DNA from: a virus
Strand: one strand, 5' to 3'
IMG/VR virus record: IMGVR_UViG_3300036760_000338
Location: 1 to 38,668 of that record
Length of the DNA: 38,668 nt
Within the stretch, counting starts at the first letter, position 1, and every line of letters begins with the position of its first letter. Shown piece by piece: positions 3,497-38,668 of this stretch. A program made the position numbers and the translations under genes. The notes under the pieces are model-generated. The model worked only from the letters and a program-made list of their open reading frames with translations, was not told the origin of the DNA and made no database searches.

Positions 3497-3503
3497 TTGT
3501 TTT

Positions 3504-4794: not shown

Positions 4795-4985
4795 TTAGAG
4801 CAATCGGTGTGCATATGTTTCAGGTGCGCATCAACTTTGTTCCATAGCTGCCTGCCTAGGGTTTTTGAAATGTATATTTCATCTACCAAGGCAGTCAGGT
4901 GAACTATCACTACTGAGGCGGTAAGGGCCATTACAATGGTTTGTACTACGGATAGAGTGAGCACCATTTTTTCGAAGTCTTTCAT
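4791..4985 (-). CDS. Small membrane protein
   Basis: 64-aa protein with a central hydrophobic span (LTLSVVQTIVMALTASVVIV) and a basic, His-containing C-terminus. Its ATG overlaps the TGA of the lipoprotein gene upstream (ATGA), so the two are translationally coupled and may act together. A lipoprotein next to a one-span membrane protein recalls inner- and outer-membrane spanin pairs, but no spanin signature is clear, so this is only a possibility. Confidence 0.55.
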   Translation of the reverse strand: MKDFEKMVLTLSVVQTIVMALTASVVIVHLTALVDEIYISKTLGRQLWNKVDAHLKHMHTDCSK

Positions 4986-5149
4986 TTTCTCACTAATGTA
5001 TATTCGGTGGTATCGCCGTCTTGAACGCTAACGAGCTTATAGTGATCGACTGCGTTTCTGGCTTGTTCTTTTGCTTTTTCCATAGCTGAATCGAGTGGAC
5101 CGGCATTGGTACATCCGGCTAGTATCGTTAATAGAATTAGGTATTTCAT
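4982..5149 (-). CDS. Small lipoprotein
   Basis: 55-aa protein starting at the ATG at 5149, which follows AAGGAG; the open frame extends further upstream but lacks such a site. MKYLILLTILAGC is a short lipoprotein signal with lipobox LAGC and C13 as the predicted lipidated residue, leaving a mature peptide of about 43 residues with a helical segment. It would be anchored in the inner or outer membrane. It could be an outer-membrane spanin-like (Rz1-type) lipoprotein or a surface-exclusion factor; neither is proved. Confidence 0.65.
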   Translation of the reverse strand: MKYLILLTILAGCTNAGPLDSAMEKAKEQARNAVDHYKLVSVQDGDTTEYTLVRK

Positions 5150-5171
5150 TTTATTTTCTCCTTTTTTGTTT

Positions 5172-5429
5172 TTACGGTAAATCGTCATCATTAATTATGT
5201 CAAAGAACCTGCTCGGCCAAGTTGCGTTATTGTCTCTTAAGCGCACGTACTTTCTCCAGGCCAACTCCCTTTGGCAGACATCTTCGTCTAGTCTTGGCCG
5301 CCATCCCATGCGTCCGGCATTAATTTTTTTGTGTAGGAAGTGCCCACCCGTACAGCAGTCGCTTATTGGTTGAGTGGCTTCCCATTCTCGTAGGGCTGTT
5401 AATGTTTCAGACGGATTAGTTATTTCCAA
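5172..5429 (-). CDS. Hypothetical Cys/Trp-containing protein
   Basis: 85-aa protein reading LEITNPSETLTALREW, then CCTGGHFLHKK and an Arg/Trp-rich second half. No family recognised. I chose the TTG at 5429 because GAGG lies six bases upstream and the overlap with the preceding gene shrinks to 14 bases. The same frame is open to TTG at 5459 without a ribosome site. It belongs to the leftward operon of very small genes. Function unknown. Confidence 0.5.
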   Translation of the reverse strand: MEITNPSETLTALREWEATQPISDCCTGGHFLHKKINAGRMGWRPRLDEDVCQRELAWRKYVRLRDNNATWPSRFFDIINDDDLP

Positions 5430-5598
5430 GTGGTGCCTCGCTTTTGATAGGTTCAACAATGGTGTCTAGGGCTTTAAATTCTTCTGTGTCTGGGTTCGGG
5501 TATTTTACTTGAACGGCAAGAGCTGCAACAACGATGAGGAACAAAAGCCAAGAGTACACGCTAACCCCAAAGATTCTTTTATCTAAGTCGATCCCCAT
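5416..5598 (-). CDS. Small membrane protein
   Basis: 60-aa protein with one hydrophobic span (SVYSWLLFLIVVAALAVQV) between a short charged N-terminus (MGIDLDKRIFG) and an acidic tail. AGAGG about seven bases before the ATG supports the start. It overlaps the gene upstream by 20 bases and the one downstream by 14, as usual in this compressed operon. The role is unknown; several neighbours are also one-span membrane proteins. Confidence 0.6.
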   Translation of the reverse strand: MGIDLDKRIFGVSVYSWLLFLIVVAALAVQVKYPNPDTEEFKALDTIVEPIKSEAPLGNN

Positions 5599-5701
5599 TT
5601 GTTCCCTCTATTTTAAAAAGGTCCTTGTCTATTTTACTTACCAGCCAGTAAACGAAAAATATTGGTAATGCGAACGGCATTAGTAGCATTTTAAAAAACA
5701 T
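5579..5701 (-). CDS. 40-aa membrane protein
   Basis: Short gene from the ATG at 5701 to TAA at 5579-5581. It encodes MFFKMLLMPFALPIFFVYWL followed by a Lys/Asp-rich tail, so a single membrane span near the N-terminus. A G-rich stretch (GGGGGTGAG) is a weak ribosome site. It starts nine bases after the stop of the gene at 5710 and overlaps the next gene by 20 bases. No family recognised. Confidence 0.45.
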   Translation of the reverse strand: MFFKMLLMPFALPIFFVYWLVSKIDKDLFKIEGTNGDRLR

Positions 5702-5709
5702 TCTCACGC

Positions 5710-5889
5710 TCACCCCCCTATTTTATCTTCGCCGATGTCCTCAATCTTTTTAAGACTGTTATTAAGGGCTGTTTCATATCCGTCTAGATAAGACGTTCTG
5801 ATTTGTGCCATTACCAGATTTTCTACGTTTGTAATTCTAGTTTTAATTTCCCTTAAAGCATCAAATATTTGGTCTATGTCTTCATTCAC
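5710..5889 (-). CDS. 59-aa coiled-coil protein, coupled to the ERF gene
   Basis: Frame from a GTG at 5889 that overlaps the TGA of the ERF-type gene as GTGA, to TGA at 5710-5712. The peptide (NEDIDQIFDALREIKTRI and onward) has a heptad-like helical pattern and no cysteine. The start/stop overlap implies it is translated by ribosomes finishing the annealing protein, so it could be a small partner of that protein. This is an inference from gene order only. Function unknown. Confidence 0.5.
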   Translation of the reverse strand: MNEDIDQIFDALREIKTRITNVENLVMAQIRTSYLDGYETALNNSLKKIEDIGEDKIGG

Positions 5890-6521
5890 ATTGTGCCCCT
5901 TGATTTTGATAAGCCCTTAAGTTTTTCAATAGCCTGAGAAGCCAAGAAATTCGTAAGTCCCGCGCGTGTAGGGGTACCGTATTGCTCTTGTAACCAGTCA
6001 GACGTTTCGCTAGCAGTCCAGCCCAAGCCTTCTACTATGGATGCGATGTAATCTAATTGTTTCTTACTAGGCTTTGCAGGGTCGGTATTTTGCGTGGGCA
6101 CCGCTTCACTGTATGTTTTGTGTGTAATGGTCACCTCAGCCCTTTGGCCATCATCATCTTCCGTTGCCAGACCGATTATTGCACAAAGGGCATAGCGCTT
6201 TGCGTAGGTAACGGCACTTCCCATTGCCTGTGGGGAATTGTCTTTGGCTATGAGTGGATACCAGCCACGAATCCATTCACCGGACTCATGCAAAAGTGTT
6301 GTAACTAAAAGGTTTTTGTCAGTTGTTTGAATAACGCAAAGACCGTTTTTGGACAGAACGGGTAACGCTGTTTCAAGACACCCTGATAGGTCTGCATAGT
6401 GTGATTTAAAAAATGGGTTAGTAGCCGTCTTAAGTGCCGGCTTCATAGTTGCCTGAACTTTACAAAGAGCGACGGCCAACTTTCCAACAGATTCAGATTG
6501 GTAGGCTAAGTGTGCTTCCAT
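5886..6521 (-). CDS. ERF-type single-strand DNA annealing protein
   Basis: 211-aa protein matching the ERF family of phage recombinases. The N-terminal core has SVGKLAVALCKVQATMKPAL, NPFFKSHYADL, a GL-x-VIQ segment, LLHESGEWI, and the hallmark GSAVTYAKRYALCAIIGL followed by EDDDG. ERF proteins form rings that anneal complementary single strands and allow recombination or genome circularisation without RecA. The C-terminal part (from about residue 150) is a variable helical region. GAAGGA precedes the ATG. It lies downstream of a promoter and an intrinsic terminator within its own leader, and is followed by a coupled small gene. It likely works with the exonuclease at 7827 and RusA at 1491. 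Confidence 0.9.
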   Translation of the reverse strand: MEAHLAYQSESVGKLAVALCKVQATMKPALKTATNPFFKSHYADLSGCLETALPVLSKNGLCVIQTTDKNLLVTTLLHESGEWIRGWYPLIAKDNSPQAMGSAVTYAKRYALCAIIGLATEDDDGQRAEVTITHKTYSEAVPTQNTDPAKPSKKQLDYIASIVEGLGWTASETSDWLQEQYGTPTRAGLTNFLASQAIEKLKGLSKSRGTM

Positions 6522-6591
6522 GTTTTCCTTCTACAAATAAAAAAGCCCCCGAGGCGTATTGCTTACCTCGGGAGCCATATCTTTCGTTCAT
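6493..6591 (-). CDS. Possible 32-aa leader peptide before the ERF gene
   Basis: Frame from ATG at 6591 (MNERYGSRGKQYASGAFLF) to TGA at 6493-6495, with AGGA about five bases upstream. It runs through the whole terminator hairpin at 6545-6575 and overlaps the ERF start by 29 bases in another frame. Ribosomes translating it would melt the hairpin, the geometry of translation-coupled attenuation. There is no run of one amino acid typical of biosynthetic leaders. It may be chance. Confidence 0.25.
   Translation of the reverse strand: MNERYGSRGKQYASGAFLFVEGKHGSTLSLPI
6536..6575 (-). terminator. Intrinsic terminator/attenuator in the ERF leader
   Basis: Minus-strand hairpin GCTCCCGAGG / CCTCGGGGGC (6575-6566 and 6554-6545; ten pairs with one U-G) with an 11-base loop, followed by TTTTTTATT. 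This is a good rho-independent terminator. It sits between the gene at 6678 and the ERF start at 6521, about 24 bases before the ATG. Confidence 0.85.
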
Positions 6592-6652
6592 GTCATCCTA
6601 ACAACAACGAAAAGAACACCAAACTGGTCGCAATACTGTTAAAACTACAATC

Positions 6653-6681
6653 GATATAAGACGATTAATTTATGGCGTCAA
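6653..6681 (-). promoter_or_regulatory. Sigma70-like promoter for the ERF operon
   Basis: On the minus strand, TTGACG (6681-6676), 17 bases, then TATATC (6658-6653). The -35 overlaps the stop codon of the upstream gene. The expected start is near 6646, giving a leader of about 125 bases that contains the hairpin at 6545-6575. Confidence 0.55.
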
Positions 6682-7091
6682 GCACATTTTGGACAATAAT
6701 ACGGTGGAAGAAAAATGTTCTTTCCATCCCAGTTTATGGCAAAAGTCTTCTTACATTTGTCGCAAAGATAATAAGAAGATACGCGCAATTCATTTGATGT
6801 TCTGGCGGGGGCATTGGCTAGCTTTGCATTTACCTTACCGAAGTTATCCTGAAGGCACCTAAGACTATGGTTTTTATTCACAAACCAATCATCGTTCATT
6901 CTAAGATATATTTTGATAGCGTCGGTAAGCCTGTCTAAGCCCACCTTTTTTATTAGGTCTTTAATCACAGTCTGGTCAGCTTGTTCGTTAATAAACACGG
7001 GTTGCGTTTTGTAACGTCTTTCGTATTCAGCAATATAGACTTCCTTTGCTGTGACTGTTCCAAGCGTTAATTCAAGTTCTAGTATTCCCAA
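6678..7091 (-). CDS. Hypothetical protein with C-terminal zinc ribbon, possibly replication-linked
   Basis: 137-aa protein. Residues 1-95 are helical (EYERRYKTQPVF, LKIYLRMNDDWFV-like pattern), resembling small phage replication-associated proteins of the kind found beside primosomal genes. Residues 109-136 carry CDKC and CPKC, a zinc ribbon. The start is a TTG at 7091 preceded by GGGAGAGG. It lies between the HNH nuclease and the ERF gene, among DNA metabolism genes, so a role in replication or recombination is likely, but no catalytic motif is seen. Confidence 0.6.
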   Translation of the reverse strand: MGILELELTLGTVTAKEVYIAEYERRYKTQPVFINEQADQTVIKDLIKKVGLDRLTDAIKIYLRMNDDWFVNKNHSLRCLQDNFGKVNAKLANAPARTSNELRVSSYYLCDKCKKTFAINWDGKNIFLPPYYCPKCA

Positions 7092-7210
7092 GACACACCT
7101 CTCCCGTTAGATTAATTCCATTTTATCGACGATTTATCAATCAAATTGCTGCGGTGCTAAGTATCTAATCTCCTAACCCAAAAAGTTTCCACTTGACCTA
7201 CGCTGCAAAT

Positions 7211-7275
7211 AATTAAAACTGAATTTTCCGCTTTTCTTTTTTTTATTTTTTTTTCTTTTTTAATTTTAATAAATT
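7211..7275. other. Poly-pyrimidine/poly-purine tract between genes
   Basis: The plus strand is almost pure T here (with a few C, A and G), the minus strand almost pure A, over about 40 bases between two leftward genes. It carries no hairpin and does not look like a terminator for the minus strand. It may give a bent or easily melted segment. I see no gene in the 183-base gap 7092-7274. Confidence 0.5.
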
Positions 7276-7709
7276 CAATCCGAAGACGTAGTCGTAGGAT
7301 TGACTCCCTGTTTCCTAATTATGGTTCTTTGAACAAATGGTTGTTTGATTTGACATCCCTTATTCAACCTATGGAGAGTTTCAATAAGTCTATTAGCTTT
7401 CTTTTGTGCTCTTTTAATCTTACGAGGATTTCTTAAAGCTTGATGAAATTGTTTTGAGGTTGGTCTGCTCCAGTTAATGCAATCAGAATTACTTTTACCA
7501 AGGTTACAGTCTTCGCAAAGAATCTGAAGATTGGATATGAGTAGCTCAAGTCTTGGGTGTGTTGACCTTGGTTTAATATGGTCAACATGTAATTTAATAC
7601 CGTCTTCTCGTGGGCTTCTACCACAGGCAGAGCAACATCCCTTACTAGCACGGATGGCTGCATAACGGATAACTCTCCACTCCCTAGATATATAAAAAGA
7701 ATCGCCCAA
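7275..7709 (-). CDS. HNH endonuclease
   Basis: 144-aa protein with a classic HNH core: CSAC at residues 26-29, LHVDHIKPRS at 40-49 (H41, D43, H44 of the beta-beta-alpha-metal site) and LQILCEDCNLGKSN at 61-74, with the second zinc knuckle CEDC. The basic C-terminal half (RKIKRAQKKANRLIE) may bind DNA. The start is a TTG at 7709 after a GGGG stretch. HNH proteins in phages are either homing nucleases or nicking helpers in packaging; away from the terminase and inside the recombination block, either is possible. Confidence 0.85.
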   Translation of the reverse strand: MGDSFYISREWRVIRYAAIRASKGCCSACGRSPREDGIKLHVDHIKPRSTHPRLELLISNLQILCEDCNLGKSNSDCINWSRPTSKQFHQALRNPRKIKRAQKKANRLIETLHRLNKGCQIKQPFVQRTIIRKQGVNPTTTSSD

Positions 7710-7826
7710 TGCCCAACCCCAGTTGATTTTCTAATGTGCGACTTGATAATTGATTTTAACGCTGATAGGCTAGAACCAATTAATCGTCGCTGATTATTTA
7801 TAGCGCTTGGCTCGCTGAAAAGCAAG

Positions 7827-8570
7827 TCAGGCGCTTTCTTTTTGTGGCACGATCACCTTATACCGGGTTAGATACCATCCAAAACATGCCTGACATTGCA
7901 TTTGCTGCCTAAGCCCAGAGGCATTTCCCCTAACACCCTTTTTTGTAACGTGGGAACTCCCGCAGTTAGGGCAACCCTCTCTCTCCTGAAGTTTAGCCAT
8001 GGAAGGATGATTCTGAATATAGGGTAAAAACCGCATATACACCTTTTCTAAAAGCGCTACGTCTTGCAAATTATAAGAACGCATCCTCTCCCATGCCTCG
8101 CTATCCCCCGCCATACACTTCAACCACAAGTCAAAGCCTTCGTGCTTTACTTTACGGCCCAGGCCTAAATGCTGGCCCAAATCATCTAGGGAATTTGAGT
8201 TAAATGAGAAGTAGCGTTTTGCAACAAGCTTCGTATCTATCGACGTTATAATCTTAGTAGGCTTCAACTTATGGTATAGGAACCGAGCCCGGGACTTCTT
8301 AATATCAAACTGATTTCCATTGTGAGCCACAATTATATCCGACTCATTAAAGAGCCGATGGATATGGACCGCTAAAGCTTTATCGTCCTTACAATCAAAG
8401 TCTTTCCTACAAAGGCAAAAAAGCTTAGACTCACCCACCCACTTCCACGCCACACTTAAAAGCTCCCACTCCTTAGCATAGGCAATGATGTTGGTTTCCC
8501 ACTTGGTCCACGAATAACCAAGCGAAGGTGATATTTCGATGTCGAACAAAAGAACCCGAGGTTTCTTCAT
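7827..8570 (-). CDS. DEDD-type 3'-5' exonuclease with C-terminal zinc ribbon
   Basis: 247-aa protein with the three exonuclease motifs of the RNase H-like/DnaQ fold: LFDIEI (D10, E12), DIIVAHNGNQFD (D89) and YNLQDV (Y166, D170; the YxxxD form, DEDDy). Residues 200-229 add a ribbon CPNC...CQAC like those of transposases and replication proteins. It looks like the proofreading domain of a family-B polymerase standing alone, with no polymerase gene in the genome. It could trim DNA ends for the ERF annealing protein. AGGAG precedes the ATG at 8570. It is the first gene of the leftward block. Confidence 0.85.
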   Translation of the reverse strand: MKKPRVLLFDIEISPSLGYSWTKWETNIIAYAKEWELLSVAWKWVGESKLFCLCRKDFDCKDDKALAVHIHRLFNESDIIVAHNGNQFDIKKSRARFLYHKLKPTKIITSIDTKLVAKRYFSFNSNSLDDLGQHLGLGRKVKHEGFDLWLKCMAGDSEAWERMRSYNLQDVALLEKVYMRFLPYIQNHPSMAKLQEREGCPNCGSSHVTKKGVRGNASGLRQQMQCQACFGWYLTRYKVIVPQKESA

Positions 8571-8660
8571 GAACGACTCCTGTTTTATTGGATTTTTTGG
8601 GGAGGCCAGTATAGTCTATCACACGATGATGTGGCGGTGGATTATCGGAAGCCGATTGTT

Positions 8661-8700
8661 TTAAAAAGAAACCCCCAATAGACACTATGTCTATCAGGGG
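8661..8700 (-). terminator. Minus-strand intrinsic terminator upstream of the exonuclease gene
   Basis: Hairpin with a seven-pair inner stem (ATAGACA 8678-8684 with TGTCTAT 8688-8694), a small internal loop and a four-pair CCCC/GGGG base, followed on the minus strand by TTTCTTTTT. It lies 90 bases before the exonuclease ATG and has no gene upstream for several hundred bases, so it ends either a short RNA or unwanted antisense transcription. Confidence 0.65.
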
Positions 8701-8990
8701 CTCCCTCGTAGCATTTCTATCCGAACTATGTTTCCCGAATATATCCTATCACTGACTAAAACTTATACACCTACCTTGATCGCAATCTGGTCCCAGGACC
8801 GTCAACACTCAACTACAGAAACAGTGAAATTGAAAAATACTTTGGAAAATCAAACATTTCTGAGTTTTCGAAGGAAATTGAGTTGAAAGTTGATGCAAGC
8901 AGCAAGGCGGAAGGAAAATCGGCCAATGTTTGACAACGTGCGTTTAAATGCCCCAGGACGCGAAAGTAAGGCCTTACCCTTATCCCAGCA

Positions 8991-9018
8991 TGGTCAGAAT
9001 CAGGCTATAGGCTATAAT
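8991..9018 (+). promoter_or_regulatory. Rightward promoter candidate
   Basis: TGGTCA (8991-8996), 16 bases, TATAAT (9013-9018). The -10 is perfect, the -35 matches four of six. The GGCTATA element is duplicated just upstream of the -10. Confidence 0.45.
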
Positions 9019-9068
9019 TTGTAGATTGTGAAATTACGTAACTATGCGTTATTACTAGGCTAATGTGG

Positions 9069-10523: not shown

Positions 10524-10769
10524 ATGCAGCAATCTGACATCAGAATACACCCAAAATTAACCACAGTATCAGTGTCAAACGAGGGGCATATCTATTCTAA
10601 CAAAACTGGGAAAATGAGAAAAACATGGAAAACGAAACACGGCTACATGCTTTTGAGCCTTTGGAGATTGGGTTTAACTCAAGAAGAGATAGCCGGAGCA
10701 TTAGAATATTGTGTACCAACAATCATCAGAGCATTGAAAAAAAATGGATATAAAAGCACAAGAAATTAA
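10524..10769 (+). CDS. NUMOD4-like plus helix-turn-helix DNA-binding protein
   Basis: 81-aa protein. Residues 14-46 (SVSNEGHIYS, then GYMLLSL) resemble the NUMOD4 domain at the N-terminus of HNH homing endonucleases, and residues 48-77 (GLTQEEIAGALEYCVPTIIR) look like a helix-turn-helix of the kind at their C-terminus. The HNH nuclease core that normally lies between is absent. It may be a homing endonuclease reduced by deletion and kept as a DNA-binding protein or regulator. It overlaps the ParB-like gene by 26 bases. No Shine-Dalgarno sequence is visible. Confidence 0.6.
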   Translation: MQQSDIRIHPKLTTVSVSNEGHIYSNKTGKMRKTWKTKHGYMLLSLWRLGLTQEEIAGALEYCVPTIIRALKKNGYKSTRN

Positions 10770-11196
10770 ACTCGTCCCAATTTCAGAAATCAAACTCAAC
10801 CCGCGTAACTCTAACAAACACACCACACAACAAATAGAAAGGCTTGCAAACATAATTAAATATCAGGGATTTAGAGAGCCGGGCGTTATCTCCAATCTAT
10901 CAGGAGTATTAATTGCAGGTGAGGGGAGATATTTGGCGGCAAAGAAATTAGGTTTGGATAAAATGCCAGTAACCTACCAAGACTTTATTGATGCGGAGCA
11001 GGAGTACGCATTCGGGGTTTCAACAAATGCAATAGCTTCATGGGCACAACTAGACCTAAAAGCTATAAACCTAGACCTACAAGACCTAGGCCCAGACTTT
11101 CAAATTGATATGCTCGGAATTAAAAACTTCACAATAGATCCATCTGAGAAAGAAGAAAAACCCACCTGTGATGCCTGTGGACAAAAAATTAAATGA
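10744..11196 (+). CDS. ParB-like nuclease/DNA-binding domain protein
   Basis: 150-aa protein with a ParB N-terminal-type domain: PISEIKLNPRNSNKHTTQQI, then IIKYQGFREPGVIS and GVLIAGEGRYLAAKKLGL, the conserved order seen in phage ParB/Srx-fold proteins. Many phage versions sit next to terminase or DNA methylase genes; here there is no methylase and the terminase follows 1.4 kb on. The C-terminus ends in CDACGQKIK, half a zinc knuckle. It may bind or nick DNA near the packaging genes. The stop overlaps the next start as ATGA. Confidence 0.8.
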   Translation: MDIKAQEIKLVPISEIKLNPRNSNKHTTQQIERLANIIKYQGFREPGVISNLSGVLIAGEGRYLAAKKLGLDKMPVTYQDFIDAEQEYAFGVSTNAIASWAQLDLKAINLDLQDLGPDFQIDMLGIKNFTIDPSEKEEKPTCDACGQKIK

Positions 11197-18984: not shown

Positions 18985-19506
18985 ATGCTAATGAAAAATT
19001 CATTGATCGTTATTATAAGCCTGCTCATTCCTGTAATCGCAAATGCAGCGGACCCGACTTTCAGTGCGGTACTAAACTTATCTCCAACTACATCAATCAT
19101 AGAAAGAAAAGTTGGTGCTAGCATTGTTATTTCATCTATTGGGGGATCGAGCTTACTTGGAGCGAGTGTTGTAGCTGTGGTGCCAAGGGTGTGGGTTACA
19201 AACACCGGAAGTTCCACAACATCATTTGCTTTTGGTAGTCCGTATCTTGGACCTGGAGCGAATAGGTACACGCCTGGACAGACGAATCTTTTCGGTAGCT
19301 CGCTTACTATGCAGCCGATTGATTTTATCTTCCATGCGCCGAGTATCTATCCCGCTTATGGGAACTCCCTGCAAGTCGGTTCACAGACATACAGTGTACG
19401 AGCGGATGTTTTACTTGATAACGGAACAACTTTGTACAGCTCAGCGTCGACTATAAAGGTACTGCCAATCGCATTACCTGATAGTCAGCAATCGGGCTGG
19501 CACTAA
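18985..19506 (+). CDS. Paralogous Ig-like protein with Sec signal peptide
   Basis: 173-aa protein with a clear signal peptide: MLMKNSLIVIISLLIPVIANA and likely cleavage at ANA-A. The mature part parallels the preceding gene (LSPTTSIIERKVGASIVIS, then FIFHAPS and STIKV). A Sec signal on a protein encoded between the capsid and tail genes is unusual, because virion proteins assemble in the cytoplasm. It may be exported to the periplasm or outer membrane. It sits immediately after its unsignalled sister. Confidence 0.65.
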   Translation: MLMKNSLIVIISLLIPVIANAADPTFSAVLNLSPTTSIIERKVGASIVISSIGGSSLLGASVVAVVPRVWVTNTGSSTTSFAFGSPYLGPGANRYTPGQTNLFGSSLTMQPIDFIFHAPSIYPAYGNSLQVGSQTYSVRADVLLDNGTTLYSSASTIKVLPIALPDSQQSGWH

Positions 19507-21314: not shown

Positions 21315-22394
21315 ATGAAGAAAGTTCTAATCGGATTAGGGGTTTTAGTGGCGGTGTCCACGGTTTTATTTGCCGCTACGACTAACATGGGACTGGACTT
21401 ACCAGTAGTCGGGAGCACAACTGGACCGGCTTGGGCCACGATGATTAACCAAGCCTTTCAAGTTGTAGACTCTCACTCTCACGCTCCAGGCAGCGGAGTG
21501 CAGATTTCTAACGCGGGGGTATCCACATCCGCAGCTATCGCTAGAAGTAAACTAGCGTCAGGCGGCGGAAGCTTAGTTTTAATTAACGATACCGCAGGCG
21601 TCATGAGTTCAGAGACTACCTTAGCTGTGCAAAGGGGTGGAACTAACTTAAGTGGCTATACAGCCGGGGATATTCTTTACGCTTCTAGCCCAACTGCTTT
21701 ATCTAAATTGCCAATTGGAACTTCCAGCCAGGTTCTAAAGGTTGCTACCGGACTACCATCGTGGGCCACACTTCCAAGTAATACTGCCCCCACTATTCAA
21801 AAATTTCTTTCTAGCTCAGGTACATATACAACACCAACATTCCCATCTCCAATTTACATAGTTGTTGAAATGGTTGGCGGTGGAGGTGGCGGTGCAGCGA
21901 GAACATCCAATGGCGGTGCTACCGGGGGGAACTCTACCTTTGCTGGGATGACGGCTAGTGGAGGCGTTGGTGGAAATGTTGGCGCAAGCCTTGGTGGTGC
22001 GGGCGGCGCGGCTTCGCTAGGTAGTCAAACGGGATTGGCGATTGCCGGCGCAAGTGGAGGCTCGGGGCTTGCAAATACTACGATTGCCATTTCCGCACCC
22101 GGCGGTACCGGGGGAAATTCTTATTTCGGCGGCGGAGGCGGCGGAGGCGCCGGTGCTTCTGCTGGGCAGGCAGCTGCGACAAATAGCGGATCTGGTGGTG
22201 GAGGCGCGGGTAGTGTCGGCTCAACCGATGCCGGTTCTGGTGGCGGTGCCGGGGGATATGTAACGGCATCAATTTCGTCTCTATCGGCCACATATGCTTA
22301 TGCCGTTGGAGCTGCTGGTGCCGGGGGTGCAGCGGGCACCGTCGCTGGTGGGTCTGGTGCAGCGGGGTTTATTATTGTTTACGAATATTACTAA
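21315..22394 (+). CDS. Fibre-type glycine-rich protein with Sec signal peptide
   Basis: 359-aa protein. Residues 1-22 (MKKVLIGLGVLVAVSTVLFA) form a signal peptide; then MGLDLPVVGSTTGPAWATMI and VVDSHSHAPG, the usual N-terminus of podovirus fibre proteins. Residues about 185-359 are a glycine-rich domain (several GGGGGG runs) ending GFIIVYEYY, as in adhesive fibre tips. The export signal on a fibre-type protein is unexpected. GGGGGAA precedes the ATG. It may be carried to the cell surface, or the hydrophobic start may serve as a virion anchor. Confidence 0.75.
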   Translation: MKKVLIGLGVLVAVSTVLFAATTNMGLDLPVVGSTTGPAWATMINQAFQVVDSHSHAPGSGVQISNAGVSTSAAIARSKLASGGGSLVLINDTAGVMSSETTLAVQRGGTNLSGYTAGDILYASSPTALSKLPIGTSSQVLKVATGLPSWATLPSNTAPTIQKFLSSSGTYTTPTFPSPIYIVVEMVGGGGGGAARTSNGGATGGNSTFAGMTASGGVGGNVGASLGGAGGAASLGSQTGLAIAGASGGSGLANTTIAISAPGGTGGNSYFGGGGGGGAGASAGQAAATNSGSGGGGAGSVGSTDAGSGGGAGGYVTASISSLSATYAYAVGAAGAGGAAGTVAGGSGAAGFIIVYEYY

Positions 22395-27050: not shown

Positions 27051-28799
27051 ATGGATAAAGAAAAAAATTTAGATCCAAGCAGCGCAATGCTTCTATCTGA
27101 AAAGGATGATGTATTTAATATTTGGCGCGGTGATAAAGAGATAGAAGTATCAAAAAAAGGATTGAGTGAAAATACCCATAACATTTTACGCTCCCTACCA
27201 AGGGCAGTGGGAATAGAAATGGCCAGCAGCGGTGCTATTGAGCAACCCACTTCCGACGCTCCAATGGAGGCACCGAAAGACCCAAGTGCAGTAAGTGCCG
27301 AGGCTCCCGTGGCCGATCCAGAAGCCCCACCCGCACCGATGTTTAATGAAGATTCAGCAGCGGTTAAATCAATAGACGAAACCCTTAGAAAATATGGGGC
27401 TAAATACCCGCAGCACGTAGCGAAATTGAAGGAGGATCGGGATAAGTTAACCGATCCGAGTAATCCCGCAAACTTTCCAGGTAGGGTGCCTCAAATACTA
27501 AGGCTACTTCCAAGCGCGGATGCGGCAGGGAAAGAAAAATTACAAAAAGAGCTGTCTGAGTTCGGTTACGTATTCCCTGCGGACAAAAAAGTTCCTGAGA
27601 TTCCCCCGCCTGCATCAGAAGCCCCGGTTGGAGATCAAATATCTAAAGCATATGGGCCAGAACAAGGGCCCGCGGCGCCCTTTGCTCCAGAAAAAACGAC
27701 TCAACAAATTGCCTCGCCCGCACCGGCTCAGCCATTACGTGAACCGGGTACACCCTTTACCCAAGCCGAAAAAGAGTTAGCTGCATATCACAATAACATT
27801 TTAGATTGGAACAGAAAATTTGAGCAGCGAACACAAAACAGAAAACAATTAGAAACTGACTATAGGAACGGTAGGATAGACCCGGAAAAGATATGGGAAA
27901 CCGGCGCGTTCGGAAGTGGATCAGGCGGAAAGGCATTAAACCAAATGCTTGCTGGGTTTAGCATTCTCTTGGGAGGTATTGGGCAGGGGCTAACTAAATC
28001 AGCCACTAACCCCGCATTGGAAGTTATTAACAGAGCAATGGATCAAAATATTGCACTACAAAAAGCTAACTTTGAAAAAATGGGTAAGCAACTATCTGAC
28101 TGGGATGAGGAAGAAAATAGACTTAGAACGGCCATGTTAACCGGGATAAAAACAAAGGTTGAATTAGCTGGAGCAAAAACCTCAGACGTTAACGCTAAAT
28201 TAAACGCCGCCAAAACATCCGTAGAAATAGAAAAGTTGATGCAGGAAAGAGACGCAACCGCTGCCGCTAATGCAGTTTATAAAGACCAGCCTGGTGGAAT
28301 TACAGCGGCCACAGCACCCTCCGCAGTAAAATGGCGTGGACAGATAGTCGGACCCCATATGGGCGGTAAAGAACAAGCTCAAAAGCTAAACGACGAATTA
28401 ATAGAACACGAAGCTAACATGAGTGATTTTGACCAACTGAAAGGTATGTTTGAAAAGACCCCCGCTGGAGGAATAAAGGACTACAGCGTTTTTAAGACCG
28501 CGGCATCTTATATCCCCGGAACTGATACAAAGGAACAGCACGATGCCGCAAAGGTAATAATAGAAAGGATCGCAAGAAGAATAAAAAAGCAGGGAGCAGT
28601 TAAGGGCGGTGTTACCGAAGAAGGTTTAAAGATGTTCACCAAGGCCGTTGGCGGTGACCCAACATCCCTTAATTCAAGAGAAGCGTTTAAGGTGCTCAGC
28701 AACGCCTCTGCGGCAGAACAGGCAGAGGTTGATAGAAAGCTTCGCAGTGGTATACACGGTTACAAACCAATTAAAGAATCACCGGCAAAAACCAAATAA
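27051..28799 (+). CDS. Internal virion/ejection-type protein
   Basis: 582-aa protein, Ala/Pro/Glu-rich at residues 65-110 and 190-240, then long helical and coiled-coil stretches (ELAAYHNNILDWNRKFEQRT; GAKTSDVNAKLNAAKTSVEI). A hydrophobic Gly-rich piece (MLAGFSILLGGIGQGLTKS) near residue 305 might insert in membranes. Position after the Cys-rich protein and before another such gene matches the podovirus ejection-protein trio. AAAGG precedes the ATG. Its TAA overlaps the next ATG. Confidence 0.75.
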   Translation: MDKEKNLDPSSAMLLSEKDDVFNIWRGDKEIEVSKKGLSENTHNILRSLPRAVGIEMASSGAIEQPTSDAPMEAPKDPSAVSAEAPVADPEAPPAPMFNEDSAAVKSIDETLRKYGAKYPQHVAKLKEDRDKLTDPSNPANFPGRVPQILRLLPSADAAGKEKLQKELSEFGYVFPADKKVPEIPPPASEAPVGDQISKAYGPEQGPAAPFAPEKTTQQIASPAPAQPLREPGTPFTQAEKELAAYHNNILDWNRKFEQRTQNRKQLETDYRNGRIDPEKIWETGAFGSGSGGKALNQMLAGFSILLGGIGQGLTKSATNPALEVINRAMDQNIALQKANFEKMGKQLSDWDEEENRLRTAMLTGIKTKVELAGAKTSDVNAKLNAAKTSVEIEKLMQERDATAAANAVYKDQPGGITAATAPSAVKWRGQIVGPHMGGKEQAQKLNDELIEHEANMSDFDQLKGMFEKTPAGGIKDYSVFKTAASYIPGTDTKEQHDAAKVIIERIARRIKKQGAVKGGVTEEGLKMFTKAVGGDPTSLNSREAFKVLSNASAAEQAEVDRKLRSGIHGYKPIKESPAKTK

Positions 28800-30379
28800 T
28801 GGCTAGCGAAACCTCAAATTCAGTTAACGTAATTAATCCATCCGGCAAGGTTGTGAGCATTGATGCGGATCAGTTACAGCAAGCCATTACTTTGGGGGGT
28901 TATAAAGAAGCCTCTGCAAAGGATTTGAGATATCAAGAAATAGAAGAAAAATACGGGGGTGATTTAGAACAACAAGCAAAAGCCTTTGGGGAAGGTGTAC
29001 TTAAAGGCGTTCCAATCGTTGGTGGAAAAATATTAAAAGCCATAACTGAGAAAGAAGCCAGAGAGGCCAGAGAGGAACTTTACCCCGGATCTGAAATGAT
29101 AGGAGAGGGGGCTTCGGTAGCTGGGCAATTGGCGCTCCCATTTTCTCCATTAGCCGGAATAGCCAAGGCGGGCCGTGCCGCAGAGGGTTTAGTTTCCGCC
29201 ACAGAAGTGGCATCACCAATTTTTAAGACAGCTCAAACCATCGCCGCAAAAGCTAGCGGATCTGCCGTCGATACCGCACTCTATGAACTGGGCAGGGAGG
29301 TAAATGAATCCGATCTTGGAGAAACGGATTTAACTGGAGAAATGGCTTTGGCAGCATTAAAAAGGGGGGCGGTAGCTGGGTTTGTAGGCGGGGCTTTATT
29401 TTCTGGAGCCACGTCAGCCTCAAAAGCAATAAAAGAATCGGCCATGTTTAATTCACTAAAAGAAGGGGGCCACCTTTCTGGAGGAGTTGCTTCCGGTGTG
29501 CTAAAAAAGGCGGCTAACAAGTTTATCCCGGAAACAATGGGGTTAAAGGATTTAGTTGTAGAAAAAATAGACAAAAGCATTACGCTAAGAGCGGTTGATT
29601 ATGCCGCTAGGGCCACTGCAAAAGTAATAGACTCCGGGGTGACCGATATTTTTAGCGCAGAGGCTCTGCCACTAGTCACGTCGAGTGCTTTTTCCCGTTC
29701 AGACAAAAGCCCACAAGGGGAAAAAGAAAAAAGAATTGAAGAGTTTAATAAACTACAGAATGAAATAACGGAACTTAAAAATAACCCGGATAGGTTTATT
29801 AGAGTGTTGTCTGACAGCACAGACGCGTTGTCATCCGCAGCCCCAAATCTAACGGCTTCAGTGATGGCTAGTAATGTAAGAGCTGTAAACTATTTAGATC
29901 AAATATTACCAAAGCCCCCCCCACAGGCCGCGCTATCTGCTCCGTGGGTAGCAAACCAAACAGAAATATCTAGCTTTATTAAGGGGTATGAGGCCGTTAA
30001 AAACCCTACGATAGTTCTTAAGCAAATAAAGGATGGAACTCTTTCGCAGAAATCCGTTGAAGCGGTAAGAGTTGTTTATCCTCAAATGTATAAGACAATG
30101 CAGGTAGAAATATTAGATAGGCTAACCTTACAAAATAATAAGATACCAAACAAAACTCGAAACATGCTCACCCTGTTTTTTGGTGAACCATTTACGAATT
30201 CAATAAAACCGCAGGCCATTTTAAGAAATCAAATGATTATGAATGGCCCATCGCAGCAAAGTGGAATGGATACGGCGGCGCCAAGAGCTGGTAAGACTAC
30301 TCAAGGTGGGCTTGGAAAATTAGATTCAGCTGATAGAATTTTGACTTCAATGCAACGTTCAAGTGAAAGGAAATCATGA
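28799..30379 (+). CDS. Internal virion/ejection-type protein
   Basis: 526-aa protein with a small beta start (VNVINPSGKVVSIDADQLQQ), then AKAFGEGVLKGVPIVGGKIL and several Ala/Gly-rich hydrophobic helices (GAVAGFVGGALFSGATSASK), the kind of amphipathic segments seen in ejection proteins that form a channel across the cell envelope. The second half is helical and basic. It is the third member of the internal-protein trio. Its TGA overlaps the next ATG. Confidence 0.75.
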   Translation: MASETSNSVNVINPSGKVVSIDADQLQQAITLGGYKEASAKDLRYQEIEEKYGGDLEQQAKAFGEGVLKGVPIVGGKILKAITEKEAREAREELYPGSEMIGEGASVAGQLALPFSPLAGIAKAGRAAEGLVSATEVASPIFKTAQTIAAKASGSAVDTALYELGREVNESDLGETDLTGEMALAALKRGAVAGFVGGALFSGATSASKAIKESAMFNSLKEGGHLSGGVASGVLKKAANKFIPETMGLKDLVVEKIDKSITLRAVDYAARATAKVIDSGVTDIFSAEALPLVTSSAFSRSDKSPQGEKEKRIEEFNKLQNEITELKNNPDRFIRVLSDSTDALSSAAPNLTASVMASNVRAVNYLDQILPKPPPQAALSAPWVANQTEISSFIKGYEAVKNPTIVLKQIKDGTLSQKSVEAVRVVYPQMYKTMQVEILDRLTLQNNKIPNKTRNMLTLFFGEPFTNSIKPQAILRNQMIMNGPSQQSGMDTAAPRAGKTTQGGLGKLDSADRILTSMQRSSERKS

Positions 30380-30711
30380 AAACTAGTAATGTCGTTTTAT
30401 TAAGTGCAGTAGACGGGGGTGTCACGGAAGCCTCTGCCGGAATTTCAGTGGGGTTTTATCAGGATTTTACGGTACATGCATTCACTACGGGGACAGCCGC
30501 TGGTACTCTGGTTATACAGGGGTCCAATGACGTTTCTGCGACTCCCAGTAATTGGGCAGACGTAGCCAGCACATCCGCTGCAATGACGTCTTCTACGCCG
30601 TATCTAAAATCTGTCAGTAACGCGCCCTTTGAGTGGATTAGGGTGTCGTACTCCGGCGCATCGGGTACCGGGAATTTGACAGCCCGCCTAAAGGCTAGTG
30701 GTTATTATTGA
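30376..30711 (+). CDS. Small beta-rich virion protein (paralog 1)
   Basis: 111-aa protein with AGTLVIQGSNDVSATPSNWADV, FEWIRVSYSGASGTGNL and a short C-terminal strand. The pattern (G-T-x-x-I-x-G/A-S-N, later W/S-x-I-R-x-S-Y and SGTG) is shared by the gene at 31811, which stands just beyond the Wzy-like gene. Likely a fibre or baseplate component with a beta-sandwich fold. The ATG overlaps the ejection-protein stop. Confidence 0.7.
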   Translation: MKTSNVVLLSAVDGGVTEASAGISVGFYQDFTVHAFTTGTAAGTLVIQGSNDVSATPSNWADVASTSAAMTSSTPYLKSVSNAPFEWIRVSYSGASGTGNLTARLKASGYY

Positions 30712-31829
30712 TGATCGGATTAGAGCCTATAATAGGCTTAGACGGCTCGATCCTTTCCGGATGGTTTTACGGGCTGGTCTTTGTTTCCCTAATTATTTCC
30801 GTACTCACGTATAGGGTTATTGGGGTTTTACCAGCGCTCGGATTTTTCTATTTCTCTTTAAGTGCGCTTCGAGTTTTTGCGTATGCCGATAGCAGGTATG
30901 TGCCAGAGGCGCTCTACTACATTCCACTGTGCTATTCGTCCCTGCTAGCTTACGCGGCTTTGCTGTCCATGACGGGGGCTGCCTTTTGCTTGCGAACGCT
31001 TCACATTAAAGAGTGCTTGCCGGTAGGAATGATGTGGCTCGGGGTGATAAATTCCTTGGTCGTTCTGTGGGGGTATAAGACCGGGGAAGGCCTTTTGTGG
31101 CAAGGCATAGGATACAGCGGCTTTTTAAATTACTCGGGGATGAATGGCACACTAATCGCCTATTCAATCCCCTTTTTCTTATGTACTAAGCAATCCTCAT
31201 TGGTAGGACTAGCTCAATGGGCCTTTTCGTTGATTGGCTTATGCTTATGCGGCACTGCAATAATTCTTTCTAAGTCCAGCATTCCATATGGTGTGGTTTC
31301 GGTGACGCTTCTAGCCATTGGGATACATCGATTTAGTTTTAAAAAGATTTCGGTGATTATGGCTGCGGCTATCCCTTTGATAGTCGGTGCCCTAGTCGAT
31401 TTTCATGGGCTCAGGGGCCTGTTAGATTCGGGGTATAGGTTTACGGCATACCGAACATTCATGAAAATGTGGTGGATACATGACAGTCACCTATGGGGTT
31501 CTGGGTTTGGGACATTTTTGGTATTAGGTAAAATAATTCAAAACAAAACTGGCTTTATGAATGGGTTTATTTGGAATTTTATGCACTCTGATATTTTACA
31601 GATTTTGTTTGAAACGGGTTTTGTGGGTCTGATTTTATTTACTGCCCTTGTAACGCAGGTAGGCAAGCGACTTTACAAGCAGGCGGAGCCTCAATTTTTT
31701 GCATTATTTTGTGGTATAATTTCTAGTGCCTTATTTGATTTCCCCTTTAGGCATTTTATCATTGTTTTTATTTCTCTAGCCGTGGCCATCGTGGCCTACT
31801 CGAGGGAAAAGTGCCAAAAAATCAGCTAA
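30711..31829 (+). CDS. Wzy / O-antigen ligase-like membrane protein
   Basis: 372-aa polytopic protein with about ten hydrophobic segments. The large loop and last segments carry the Wzy/WaaL signature: SGYRFTAYRTFMKMWWIHDS, then WGSGFGTFLVLG, FMHSDILQILFETGFVGLIL, that is G-x-G-x-F followed by H-x-D-x-L-Q-x-x-x-E-x-G-x-x-G. Enzymes of this family polymerise or attach O-antigen or other glycans outside the inner membrane. Serotype-converting phages such as D3 are known to encode alternative Wzy proteins. Start: ATG at 30711 overlaps the preceding TGA (TGATG); a TTG at 30708 is also in frame. It is the only polytopic membrane protein of the late operon. Confidence 0.82.
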   Translation: MIGLEPIIGLDGSILSGWFYGLVFVSLIISVLTYRVIGVLPALGFFYFSLSALRVFAYADSRYVPEALYYIPLCYSSLLAYAALLSMTGAAFCLRTLHIKECLPVGMMWLGVINSLVVLWGYKTGEGLLWQGIGYSGFLNYSGMNGTLIAYSIPFFLCTKQSSLVGLAQWAFSLIGLCLCGTAIILSKSSIPYGVVSVTLLAIGIHRFSFKKISVIMAAAIPLIVGALVDFHGLRGLLDSGYRFTAYRTFMKMWWIHDSHLWGSGFGTFLVLGKIIQNKTGFMNGFIWNFMHSDILQILFETGFVGLILFTALVTQVGKRLYKQAEPQFFALFCGIISSALFDFPFRHFIIVFISLAVAIVAYSREKCQKIS

Positions 31830-32155
31830 AAAACTATGTTCTAGTGGATGCGGTGAGCACAGCTGCGGGTTTTAGTTCTGACCCAATTGACGTGGAGTTT
31901 TTAGACAATATTGGATTTAATGTGGATTGGACAGGAACCACAACCGGAACTATTACGATAGAGGCGTCTAACACAACGGTTTCCGGTTCTTTCAAGGCGC
32001 TTACCTTTGACCCAGTATTGGCCCAGCCGTCCGGTTCTGCTAGTGGGTATCTAATTAGCGTAAATCAAACCCCCTGGTCTTTTATACGATTTTCTTACGC
32101 TAGAACTTCCGGCACCGGGACTATGACGGTCTCAGTGGCGGCAAAGGCGGTATAG
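31811..32155 (+). CDS. Small beta-rich virion protein (paralog 2)
   Basis: 114-aa protein, related to the gene at 30376: VDWTGTTTGTITIEASNTTVSG, then WSFIRFSYARTSGTGTMTVSV. The start GTG at 31811 has GAGGG about five bases upstream and overlaps the end of the Wzy-like gene by 19 bases. Likely a fibre or tail-tip component. The Wzy-like gene thus lies between two members of one small virion family. Confidence 0.7.
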   Translation: MPKNQLKNYVLVDAVSTAAGFSSDPIDVEFLDNIGFNVDWTGTTTGTITIEASNTTVSGSFKALTFDPVLAQPSGSASGYLISVNQTPWSFIRFSYARTSGTGTMTVSVAAKAV

Positions 32156-33547
32156 GTGTCGTCGTATGAGTGGCCTCCAGAAGGTAGCACCGCCGCTACT
32201 GGAATTACTAGCATCAATAGTGATACTACCGCGGCGCAATTAATTGTAGGCGGTACCGGGATTTCCGTTGCCACAGCTGCGGGTTCTACAACGATAACAA
32301 ATACCGGCTTTTCTGGCACGGGTTCCGGGACAGACAATCACATTGTTAGGTGGGATGGGACTACTAACATCCAAGATTCTTCCGTCATTATTTTAGACGG
32401 TGGGCAAACGCAGTTTGTTGCTGGGACTGCAGGAACCCCAAGCGTGATTTTTTCTACTGATACTACTACTGGATTCTTTCGCCCAGCCGCAAACCAAGTT
32501 GGAGTATCGATAAGTGGAACTGAGCTATTTGAATTTAACGTCAATGGGCTTTTATTTCCCAACACCATAACCACCGGATCGGGTGGGCAATCTATAATAG
32601 ACGCCCAGTTAATAAACTTTTCCACTACTTCCAACTCACACGGAATTCATTTAGTTACTAATCGTACTGGTTCCGGCGTTCAGGGATTCAATTCTGGGAT
32701 TTATGTAGAAGTGCCAACTGGGAGTAACACCGCCGCCAACTTTAACTCGGCTATGGTGCTGAGCGTCTCGGTTGCCGGTAAGGGAACCAGTCTCACGGGT
32801 AACGCCGCAAATGTATGCCTTAGTACTTATACAAATTCAAATACCGCAATTGGCCATAACTATGGCGTTGGGATTGTGGTGGAAAATGGACAACGGAACG
32901 TGGGGGTCACTGCCGCTGTAAATGCCACGGCCAGGGCTACCGCAAACTCAACGGCGGTTCATGGTGCTGCGAGTAGTCCCGGAAATACTACTTATTGTGC
33001 TGGATTTTTTGAGCTAAGTACGTCTGCCGTTTACTATGAAACCGTGGCCCCGGTTATTGCTGCTCTAATTGCAGATAACGGAGGTACCACAGCGGATATA
33101 TTGGTAGCTAGGGATAACGCTACAACTGTATTTTCGGTAATTGATGGCGGGCACACTGTAATAGGCGGGGATACAACTGCCAGTGAACTAAGGATTTTAG
33201 AGGCTAGCGGTTCTGGGACTAATTACTCCGCGTTTAAGGCCCAAGCCCAAGCGGCGAGTGTAACCTATACGCTTCCCGCAGCCGATGGAACTAGCGGATA
33301 TCAACTAACAACAAATGGAAGTGGAACGCTAACGTGGGCTGCGGCTGGTGGATCGATACCAGAACTTACCTCCGATCCAGGATCCCCCACAGCCGAAAGC
33401 GCATGGGTTTTATTTACAACCGGAACCCCAACGTTATCCCATTCTATCGTGACGCTTGGCTTAACGCTTCCCGGCTCGGGTGTGGCGAGCTATCAATTTA
33501 GTTACAGGACTTTAGAATCAACCACGGTTAGAGTAACTTTAACCTAG
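32156..33547 (+). CDS. Tail fibre protein
   Basis: 463-aa Gly/Ser/Thr-rich protein, beta throughout, with TSINSDTTAAQLIVGGTGISVA near the start and DNHIVRWDGTTNIQDSSVII, a sequence typical of trimeric fibre shafts and tail-collar proteins. The end (VASYQFSYRTLESTTVRVTL) is beta-rich. Starts with GTG directly after the previous TAG. Probably recognises or binds the host surface. Confidence 0.75.
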   Translation: MSSYEWPPEGSTAATGITSINSDTTAAQLIVGGTGISVATAAGSTTITNTGFSGTGSGTDNHIVRWDGTTNIQDSSVIILDGGQTQFVAGTAGTPSVIFSTDTTTGFFRPAANQVGVSISGTELFEFNVNGLLFPNTITTGSGGQSIIDAQLINFSTTSNSHGIHLVTNRTGSGVQGFNSGIYVEVPTGSNTAANFNSAMVLSVSVAGKGTSLTGNAANVCLSTYTNSNTAIGHNYGVGIVVENGQRNVGVTAAVNATARATANSTAVHGAASSPGNTTYCAGFFELSTSAVYYETVAPVIAALIADNGGTTADILVARDNATTVFSVIDGGHTVIGGDTTASELRILEASGSGTNYSAFKAQAQAASVTYTLPAADGTSGYQLTTNGSGTLTWAAAGGSIPELTSDPGSPTAESAWVLFTTGTPTLSHSIVTLGLTLPGSGVASYQFSYRTLESTTVRVTLT

Positions 33548-37207: not shown

Positions 37208-37981
37208 TTATGAAAAATTCGGTGACTTCCAAGAAATCTGTTGAAGCGACCCGGTGAATGCCTTTTTAATCGGCCAACCCGCACTTAGTCGACGTCTCAC
37301 TGTAACCCTCTTCACGCCCAACTTCATACACCACTCGCTGAGTGTTTTGCGCTTCCCATTTATATTATACATCTTGGGCCGTAAAACCTCCCCATAAACA
37401 GCTTCGCGTGGAGACACCCCCCTTTTAATACGACCTCGTATGGTAGCTGGTTTTTTTCCGACCAACTCAGCCCACTCAAAAAGGTGGAGCCTTTTTCCTT
37501 CTATCGTAAGAAAAACGCAGTAATCCCTGTTCCTCTGCTGTTCTTTTCGCGTTGCCCACCGGCAGTTTTTCTTAAAGTATCCTTTTTTGTTATCTATCCT
37601 ATCAATAGAATGCTTCTCTGAAGTAGGCTCCCCCATGTCTTCATAAAACAATTCAAATCTTTTCCACCTTGAACAGACCAAAATCCCCTTTCGGTGATAA
37701 ATTGCCCCTACCTTGCATCGCTTTATCATCGATGCCCACGCCTGATAAACCTGCGTCCCAAACTTCCCGTGCTTTCTGTTCCACCAATGATCTTCCGACA
37801 AGCACCCGCAAGATTTTGTAGAGCCCTGCCCCAAACACTTAGTAGATGCTATTTTGGTTTTTCCACAGTCGCACTTGCATAACCATAGGATGTGGCGGTC
37901 ACGCCTCTCCACCGGCTTTACCGCAACTAGTTTCCCGTATCGTTTTCCAGAAAGGTCTTTTGCTGTTCTGTATAACTTCAT
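37208..37981 (-). CDS. Homing-endonuclease-like HNH/AP2-type protein
   Basis: 257-aa protein of a family common in phages: DLSGKRYGKLVAVKPVERRD, LWLCKCDCGKTKIASTKCL, KSCGCLS (zinc site), HGKFGTQVYQAWASMIKRC, GILVCSRWKRFELFYEDMG and SIDRIDNKKGYFKKNCRWAT, the last giving the nuclease-type D-R-x-D-N-x-x-x-Y and N-C-R-W. The end adds two HTH-like repeats (WAELVGKKPATIRGRIKRG; WCMKLGVKRVTVRRRLSAG) for DNA binding. It probably spreads by cutting phages that lack it and sits directly downstream of the glycosyltransferase. Confidence 0.8.
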   Translation of the reverse strand: MKLYRTAKDLSGKRYGKLVAVKPVERRDRHILWLCKCDCGKTKIASTKCLGQGSTKSCGCLSEDHWWNRKHGKFGTQVYQAWASMIKRCKVGAIYHRKGILVCSRWKRFELFYEDMGEPTSEKHSIDRIDNKKGYFKKNCRWATRKEQQRNRDYCVFLTIEGKRLHLFEWAELVGKKPATIRGRIKRGVSPREAVYGEVLRPKMYNINGKRKTLSEWCMKLGVKRVTVRRRLSAGWPIKKAFTGSLQQISWKSPNFS

Positions 37982-38019: not shown

Positions 38020-38668
38020 CTAATAAACTTCAAGACCGTCTTCGTGTCTGCTGGCCAGGTATGCACGTATCTGGTCGCGCATTCGTATCTGACGAGGCTC
38101 CCACGTCTCTAACTGTAGAAGTCCTTGGCTATCCGGTTTCACATCCGTATAGGGGTTGTACTGGTTCTGCACTAATATCTGTGACCTGGACCCGTAAAAT
38201 CTTTTGGACTTGTCGCCATGCCAATGATGAGCGAGGGTTCCTTTCACGAATCCAACGTCACGCTTTATCCATCGCTCACAGCGAGTTTGATACTCCATTA
38301 GGTAATGACCAAACGCGGAGAGCTTGTTGTATTCACCAGGAAACTGCTTGAGAGCCCCAACCAGCGCATGCGCGTAGTGCCAATCTGCACTTCCTAACAC
38401 GGCGCGTTCTGGTAAACCACCGGTTGCATCCAACGCCCCAACGTTAGCTGCCCACGCAAGCCCCGGTCTTCCAAGCGCCAATTTCCCATAACCATCAGGC
38501 ATATCAGAAAGGTTTTTATCGTCGGGAACTTGAAATCCATAGTGAGCATAAGTCGCCATGAAACTCATTTGCTTACCTGACACCGGCTCGTAGTCGGGCC
38601 CGTAATTTATTAGCCACTCCCACATCTGGACTATCTGAAAATGTTGTAGGGCATGATAAGTTTCTTCG
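38020..38668 (-). CDS. Glycosyltransferase, C-terminal part (start at window base 528)
   Basis: C-terminal part of the 349-aa glycosyltransferase whose first 176 residues are at 1-528; the unique portion here is 38020-38541 (residues 177-349). The frame continues unbroken through the 127-base repeat. It contains GLAWAANVGALDATGGLPER, LGSADWHYAHALVGALKQF, LAHHWHGDKSKRFYG and a closing QIRMRDQIRAYLASRHED. The GADW-like and HHWHG segments are conserved in this phage glycosyltransferase group and probably lie in the acceptor site. The stop at 38020 is 38 bases before the endonuclease start. Confidence 0.8.
   Translation of the reverse strand, partial: EETYHALQHFQIVQMWEWLINYGPDYEPVSGKQMSFMATYAHYGFQVPDDKNLSDMPDGYGKLALGRPGLAWAANVGALDATGGLPERAVLGSADWHYAHALVGALKQFPGEYNKLSAFGHYLMEYQTRCERWIKRDVGFVKGTLAHHWHGDKSKRFYGSRSQILVQNQYNPYTDVKPDSQGLLQLETWEPRQIRMRDQIRAYLASRHEDGLEVY
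38542..38668. repeat. Terminal direct repeat, right copy
   Basis: Exact copy of window bases 1-127 (GTGAGCATAAGTCGCC at its start). Removing one copy gives a closed circle of 38,541 bp in which the glycosyltransferase frame is intact. Confidence 0.95.

Follow-up and report, generated by a model that had tools for sequence, protein, structure and literature searches.

Results

A Wzy_C/O-antigen-ligase-type membrane protein in a phage structural operon

The gene at positions 30711-31829 (+ strand) of the 38,668-nucleotide viral record IMGVR_UViG_3300036760_000338 (IMG/VR; analysed over its full length and referred to below as the window) encodes an integral membrane protein of 372 amino acids that is well supported as a member of the Wzy_C/O-antigen-ligase type with the GT-C_B fold. 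Computational analysis established its superfamily and fold, two of three catalytic residues, its position in an operon of structural genes and its place in a phage-specific clade. We infer that it acts as an enzyme with which the phage may modify sugars of the infected cell or of proteins that it exports, and a late glycan transferase remodelling the host surface has about an even chance of being the correct description.

An earlier note on this DNA had called the gene Wzy/WaaL-like, and the profile, the fold and two catalytic residues all agree with that reading. The C-terminal region of the window protein matched Pfam Wzy_C (PF04932) with an E value of 1.3e-4 and 22.2 bits, which for this protein alone is below the curated cut-off of 31.7 bits. 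However, the proven Wzy-beta of phage D3 scores nearly the same (21.9 bits) and is also under the cut-off, indicating that the shortfall is uninformative. Relatives were gathered by scanning viral contigs for the motif H-x-D-x-L-Q-x-x-x-E-x-G-x-x-G; the scan returned 47 stretches, 45 of them in frame and nearly all in polytopic open reading frames (ORFs) of about 330-560 amino acids, and a 30-sequence family alignment was drawn from these. Wzy_C was matched at E<=0.01 by 27 of the 30 members, with a best value of 5.7e-18, and a profile of the family had protein matches in 183 of the 398 Pseudomonadota genomes searched. The two motifs read by the earlier note, G-x-G-x-F and H-x-D-x-L-Q...E-x-G, are present as GSGFGTF and MHSDILQILFETGFVG, the latter fitting H-x-D-x-L-Q...E-x-G-x-x-G, although the H, D, L, Q, E and G of this motif were preselected by the search in the phage set and are not independent evidence there. 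O-antigen ligases carry the motif H-[NSQ]-X9-G-XX-[GTY], to which HS-X9-GFVG of the window protein is an exact fit.

An AlphaFold2 model built from a two-sequence alignment reached a pLDDT of only 41.5, while the 30-sequence alignment gave a model with a pLDDT of 87.9. The protein shows 9 hydropathy peaks, and about 11-12 membrane-length helices in the confident model, so that its proposed polytopic nature stands while the number of spans is slightly higher than the roughly 10 suggested. Comparison of the model with folds in the PDB placed the WaaL ligase 7TPG first (Z 16.6 over 298 residues at 4.2 A), followed by RodA/FtsW at Z 10-11.5 and other folds at 8.5 or less. These matches to WaaL and RodA/FtsW assign the model to the GT-C_B fold, and a different transporter fold was rejected because WaaL came clearly first; both profile search and structure prediction thus found the similarity that had been proposed. 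Sequence searches of the PDB with the two- and 30-sequence profiles returned nothing, no viral protein was matched with confidence when BFVD was searched for the fold of the membrane protein, and hhalign aligned the His-motif region alone, and weakly, against the single E. coli WaaL and nothing against the single D3 Wzy.

Two of the three catalytic residues are retained

To examine catalytic positions, the 30 phage sequences were aligned with 30 comparison sequences, consisting of E. coli WaaL, D3 Wzy and 28 cellular matches (the 30 best places among the 398 Pseudomonadota genomes, 28 of which yielded an ORF). Residues R215, R288 and H338 of E. coli WaaL are equivalent to R224, R298 and H349 of PglL (PMC3643930). 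In the window protein, R243 (codon 31437-31439, +) aligns with R288, the second arginine binding undecaprenyl-pyrophosphate (Und-PP), in a column that holds Arg throughout (30/30 in the phage set and 30/30 in the comparison set). H292 (31584-31586, +) aligns with H338, the proposed acceptor-activating histidine, and this column holds His in 28/30 comparison sequences. By contrast, S190 (31278-31280, +) occupies the position of the first Und-PP-binding arginine of WaaL, PglL and D3 Wzy (R215 of E. coli WaaL and R191 of the solved ligase), where Arg is found in 27/30 comparison sequences as against 5/30 phage sequences. In the clade of the window protein described below, position 190 is mostly Ser or Thr, and position 188 is basic in many but not all members. 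R243, H292, the G-x-G motif and the W/Y following R243 are nevertheless retained across about 20% identity, suggesting selection for catalysis. Because the first arginine is a defining residue that was tested for and is absent, the protein should not be filed as a WaaL or a PglL; it is a new variant inside the Wzy_C superfamily.

The gene is coupled to probable virion genes of a complete phage genome

Every gene from 28799 to 32155 overlaps its successor, indicating that the membrane gene belongs to the structural operon, as the earlier note had placed it. The ORF tool began the gene at a TTG (30708), whereas the TGATG stop/start overlap (30709-30713, +) that couples it to the gene at 30376-30711 places its ATG start at 30711. 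At the other end it shares 19 bases (31811-31829, +) with the GTG-initiated gene at 31811-32155. Both the coupling and this overlap are as described before, and the downstream overlap measures 41 bases in G013, a relative with an 85% identical capsid, and 17 bases in G078. The flanking genes encode small beta-rich proteins of 111 amino acids (protein A, 30376-30711, +), with members of the same family in relatives, and 114 amino acids (protein B, 31811-32155, +), with homologues in relatives, and their proposed paralogy was borne out by BLASTP (47% over 32 amino acids, E 2e-7). Members of the A/B family are found at this position in about 20 relatives, in most cases directly after a large ejection-type protein, and the domain also lies within fibre-sized proteins of L211 (945 amino acids, 4851-7688; 446 amino acids, 7697-9037), so that the pair are probably virion genes. 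Upstream of them, a large protein (28799-30379, +), whose C-terminal part is conserved in relatives, is by position and homologues probably an ejection or internal virion protein; a single-protein search of viral contigs with it found no relative. Following the locus, 32156-33547 (+) encodes a tail-fibre-like protein matching phrog_28766 (tail fiber protein, E 1.8e-7).

Bases 1-127 of the window recur exactly at 38542-38668, indicating that the genome is complete and was assembled as a circle of 38,541 bases; end repeats of 123 or 127 bases are found in the window and seven other family records. Its terminase, portal and capsid proteins all have matches in phage families, and the portal and capsid are SU10-like. 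No match to PF00589 was found in the complete genome, in agreement with the earlier remark that no integrase is visible, the search being for tyrosine integrases and leaving serine integrases and plasmid-like lysogeny outside it. Relatives of the capsid are encoded in more than 500 viral-contig stretches, while the capsid, portal and membrane protein of the window had 0 matches among 50,697 cultured-phage records.

The family forms a phage-only clade with a patchy distribution

A homologue of the membrane protein with 37% identity stands at the same locus in G013. Neither a single-protein search of viral contigs nor a scan of genome contigs with the two-sequence alignment found a relative of the membrane protein. 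A survey of 47 SU10-like records identified the gene in two (the window and G013), and two further carriers with the same capsid family, G078 and G110, came from the motif scan. All four have it in the tail/fibre cluster, although an insertion between two paralogues, correct for the window, is particular to it: the gene is located between the ejection-type protein and one paralogue of the beta-rich family in G013, and between a signal-peptide-bearing fibre-like protein and a beta-rich paralogue in G078. In G110 (L331, 15831-17715), also an SU10-like phage, there is an overlap between the Wzy-like gene and a gene for a family-2 glycosyltransferase, which suggests that the pair is a small glycan module.

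In a quick tree with long branches, built without the first-Arg column, the window protein fell within a phage-only clade of 18 (SH-aLRT 96). A terminase gene is present in 13 of these 18 records, the window included, and a tyrosine integrase was seen in three records. Other clade members have the gene elsewhere, between helicase and primase genes in L246 and near a DNA polymerase in L229. Such a distribution is typical of a mobile accessory gene, carried here chiefly by phages with no visible lysogeny. No PHROG describes the family, and four clade members tested against the 50,697 cultured-phage records had 0 matches; the family is previously unlisted and so far found only in uncultured phages.

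Wzy-like genes often follow genes for exported proteins

Signal peptides were called by a simple home-made rule and not by SignalP. By this rule, in 15/29 family loci the immediate upstream gene on the same strand encodes a protein with a Sec-type signal peptide, compared with 36/301 of the remaining same-strand genes at these loci (Fisher p 1.5e-6) and 5/216 genes of random viral contigs. The call on the upstream gene in L229 was judged false, and the remaining 14/29 are still significant; a signal peptide flagged on 30376-30711 was likewise judged a false call. Most of the upstream proteins are rich in Ser/Thr (17-28%) and several resemble fibre or decoration proteins, although some are homologous to one another, so that the cases are not all independent. 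In L239, L220, L259 and L264, an exported protein and a Wzy-like gene stand close behind capsid-looking genes, at roughly the position that the exported 18985-19506 occupies in the window.

No exported protein adjoins the membrane gene in the window, where exported candidates are found elsewhere in the operon. These are a post-capsid protein of 173 amino acids (18985-19506, +; N-terminus MLMKNSLIVIISLLIPVIANA) and a virion-type protein of 359 amino acids with weak virion matches to phrog_863/9770 (21315-22394, +; MKKVLIGLGVLVAVSTVLFA), both with Sec-type signal peptides, which are candidate partners of the enzyme. Their signal peptides are common to G013, while the homologues of most relatives start after them. 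For 21315-22394 the signal peptide occurs in the window, G013 and fragment L132 and is absent in nearly all other listed homologues; L132 and, by eye, L031 are exceptions in having one, and G078 has none on its 21315 homologue.

Discussion

The protein would, in the explanation we favour, be an inner-membrane GT-C_B-fold transferase with its active site facing the periplasm, taking an oligosaccharide from host Und-PP as donor. Since it is translated together with tail and fibre genes, its synthesis would be late. It would then move host glycan onto a surface acceptor, altering or capping the O-antigen or capsule, leaving the cell and its debris less able to bind sister phages or competitors. 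For phages that convert glycans with enzymes of this kind, D3 is a precedent (PMC4815439; also PMC9658991), as is an Acinetobacter prophage Wzy that alters the host surface glycan (PMC13228068), and for lytic phages whose genes modify O-antigen, receptor masking and superinfection exclusion have been put forward (PMC12373910). Several observations weigh against this explanation. The first Und-PP-binding arginine is found in 0/18 members of the window's clade, and its loss from the whole clade means that activity is not assured. The Wzy-carrying phages of the cited literature are temperate, whereas no integrase was found here. No host could be assigned, capsid relatives among genome contigs being limited to two contigs from metagenome-assembled genomes that are possibly misbinned. 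Finally, the exported virion-like neighbours suggest an acceptor other than a surface glycan, one that the earlier note had not raised.

This last point leads to an enzyme like PglL, PilO or PglS, a protein O-oligosaccharyltransferase transferring host lipid-linked glycan to Ser/Thr of a Sec-exported phage protein, with 18985-19506 and 21315-22394 as acceptors in the window and the protein encoded just upstream in other carriers. We regard it as somewhat unlikely but as a serious rival, since O-glycosyltransferases of the Wzy_C superfamily usually stand beside their targets; bacterial pglL genes typically adjoin theirs (21/31; PMC3643930). The excess of signal peptides upstream of the family gene, the mostly Ser/Thr-rich and in part fibre- or decoration-like character of those upstream proteins, and the signal peptides of window and G013 on two virion-operon proteins, rare in relatives, all speak for it. 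By contrast, the pairing lies mostly outside the window's clade (3 clade loci), some exported fibre-region proteins also occur in Wzy-negative relatives, the first catalytic Arg, a conserved residue of PglL, is missing, and PglL_A (PF15864) was not among the Pfam matches of the 30 members at E<=0.01, although PilO also has no PglL_A motif (PMC3643930). That these phages own a full protein O-glycosylation system, in which a Wzy_C-type enzyme without the first catalytic arginine coats Sec-exported forms of fibre or decoration proteins with host glycan in the periplasm (30711-31829 acting on 18985-19506 and 21315-22394 in the window), is unlikely; if true, receptors would be masked or a host-like glycan presented, for instance.

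The loss of the first arginine, with Ser/Thr at position 190 in most clade members, could instead mean that the protein is non-catalytic and binds Und-PP glycan or host Wzy/WaaL partners in a dominant-negative manner, blocking them and leaving rough, phage-resistant cells. Blocking has a precedent in the Iap peptide of D3, a phage inhibitor of O-antigen polymerase (PMC12373910). However, SEDS polymerases retain the second Arg alone (PMC10920833), so that loss of the first does not imply inactivity, and the retention of R243, H292, G-x-G and the W/Y also argues against a dead enzyme, which makes blocking quite unlikely. A host gene caught in the contig by chance, as an inert passenger or an assembly mistake, would fit the patchy occurrence in 2/47 relatives. 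It is highly improbable, as the gene holds the same place in two related phages with intact frames and tight translational coupling, its phage-only clade is supported and rich in terminase-bearing records, and the motif matches are almost all in frame and within polytopic ORFs.

Among known systems, WaaL (CAZy GT121; 7TPG) is closest, sharing the best fold match, the Wzy_C domain, the second Und-PP Arg, the acceptor-activating His and H-S-X9-G-XX-G. It differs in that the window protein has Ser for the first Und-PP Arg and is encoded in a phage tail operon; the window protein is also shorter than the cellular relatives found (372 vs 418-634 amino acids). D3 Wzy-beta (phrog_19842) and VarioGold VG_p25 are likewise phage-encoded Wzy_C membrane proteins, whereas D3 Wzy-beta retains the first Arg and is a separate conversion gene in temperate phages. 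With the D3 protein as query, 12 collection records were recovered, none of the window kind, and there was no direct similarity to the window family. The enzyme is thus not of the D3 type cited in the earlier note: a D3-type polymerase or direct descent from D3 was rejected, given the lack of a PHROG match, the lack of a match in the phage collection and Ser190 in place of the first Arg. PglL, PilO and PglS share the superfamily with a family whose gene often lies beside that of a Sec-exported protein, but the family has no PglL motif match, the window's clade has no first Arg, and the exported neighbours are fibre- or decoration-like and not pilins. The SEDS proteins RodA/FtsW (GT119), second in fold and likewise keeping the second Arg alone, have Asp where O-ligases and the window family have His. 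Acinetobacter wzy1Ph/wzy2Ph (PMC13228068), set against the window by description and not by sequence, are phage-borne Wzy genes changing the host surface glycan, but through lysogenic capsule conversion by a prophage.

Only a small number of Wzy enzymes are known from phages, and the phages that carry them are temperate and convert serotype. A distinct clade that is confined to phages and occurs mostly in genomes without an integrase implies that reworking of host glycans may extend to lytic phages, with consequences for superinfection, adsorption and resistance to phages. The absence of the first Arg provides a natural way to probe how O-ligases work, and the association with exported virion-like proteins prompts the idea that protein glycosylation could be encoded by phages.

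Other genes of the window

A minus-strand gene of at most 355 codons spans the contig ends (1-546 and 38020-38668). It contains a DxD-like motif, WIDADCRP, suggestive of a GT-A glycosyltransferase, and has homologues in G013 (28.5%) and G030 (42.6%), with no Pfam match for the window and G013 parts tested. At 10744-11196 the window encodes a ParB_N-domain protein of 150 amino acids, which looks shortened compared with the 386-395 amino acids of its homologues in G078 and G073. A match to the restriction-alleviation protein Lar, barely above the Pfam cut-off, is located at 3314-3718 (-). Two HNH-endonuclease genes lie at 37208-37981 (-) and 7275-7709 (-), one of which matches phrog_374.

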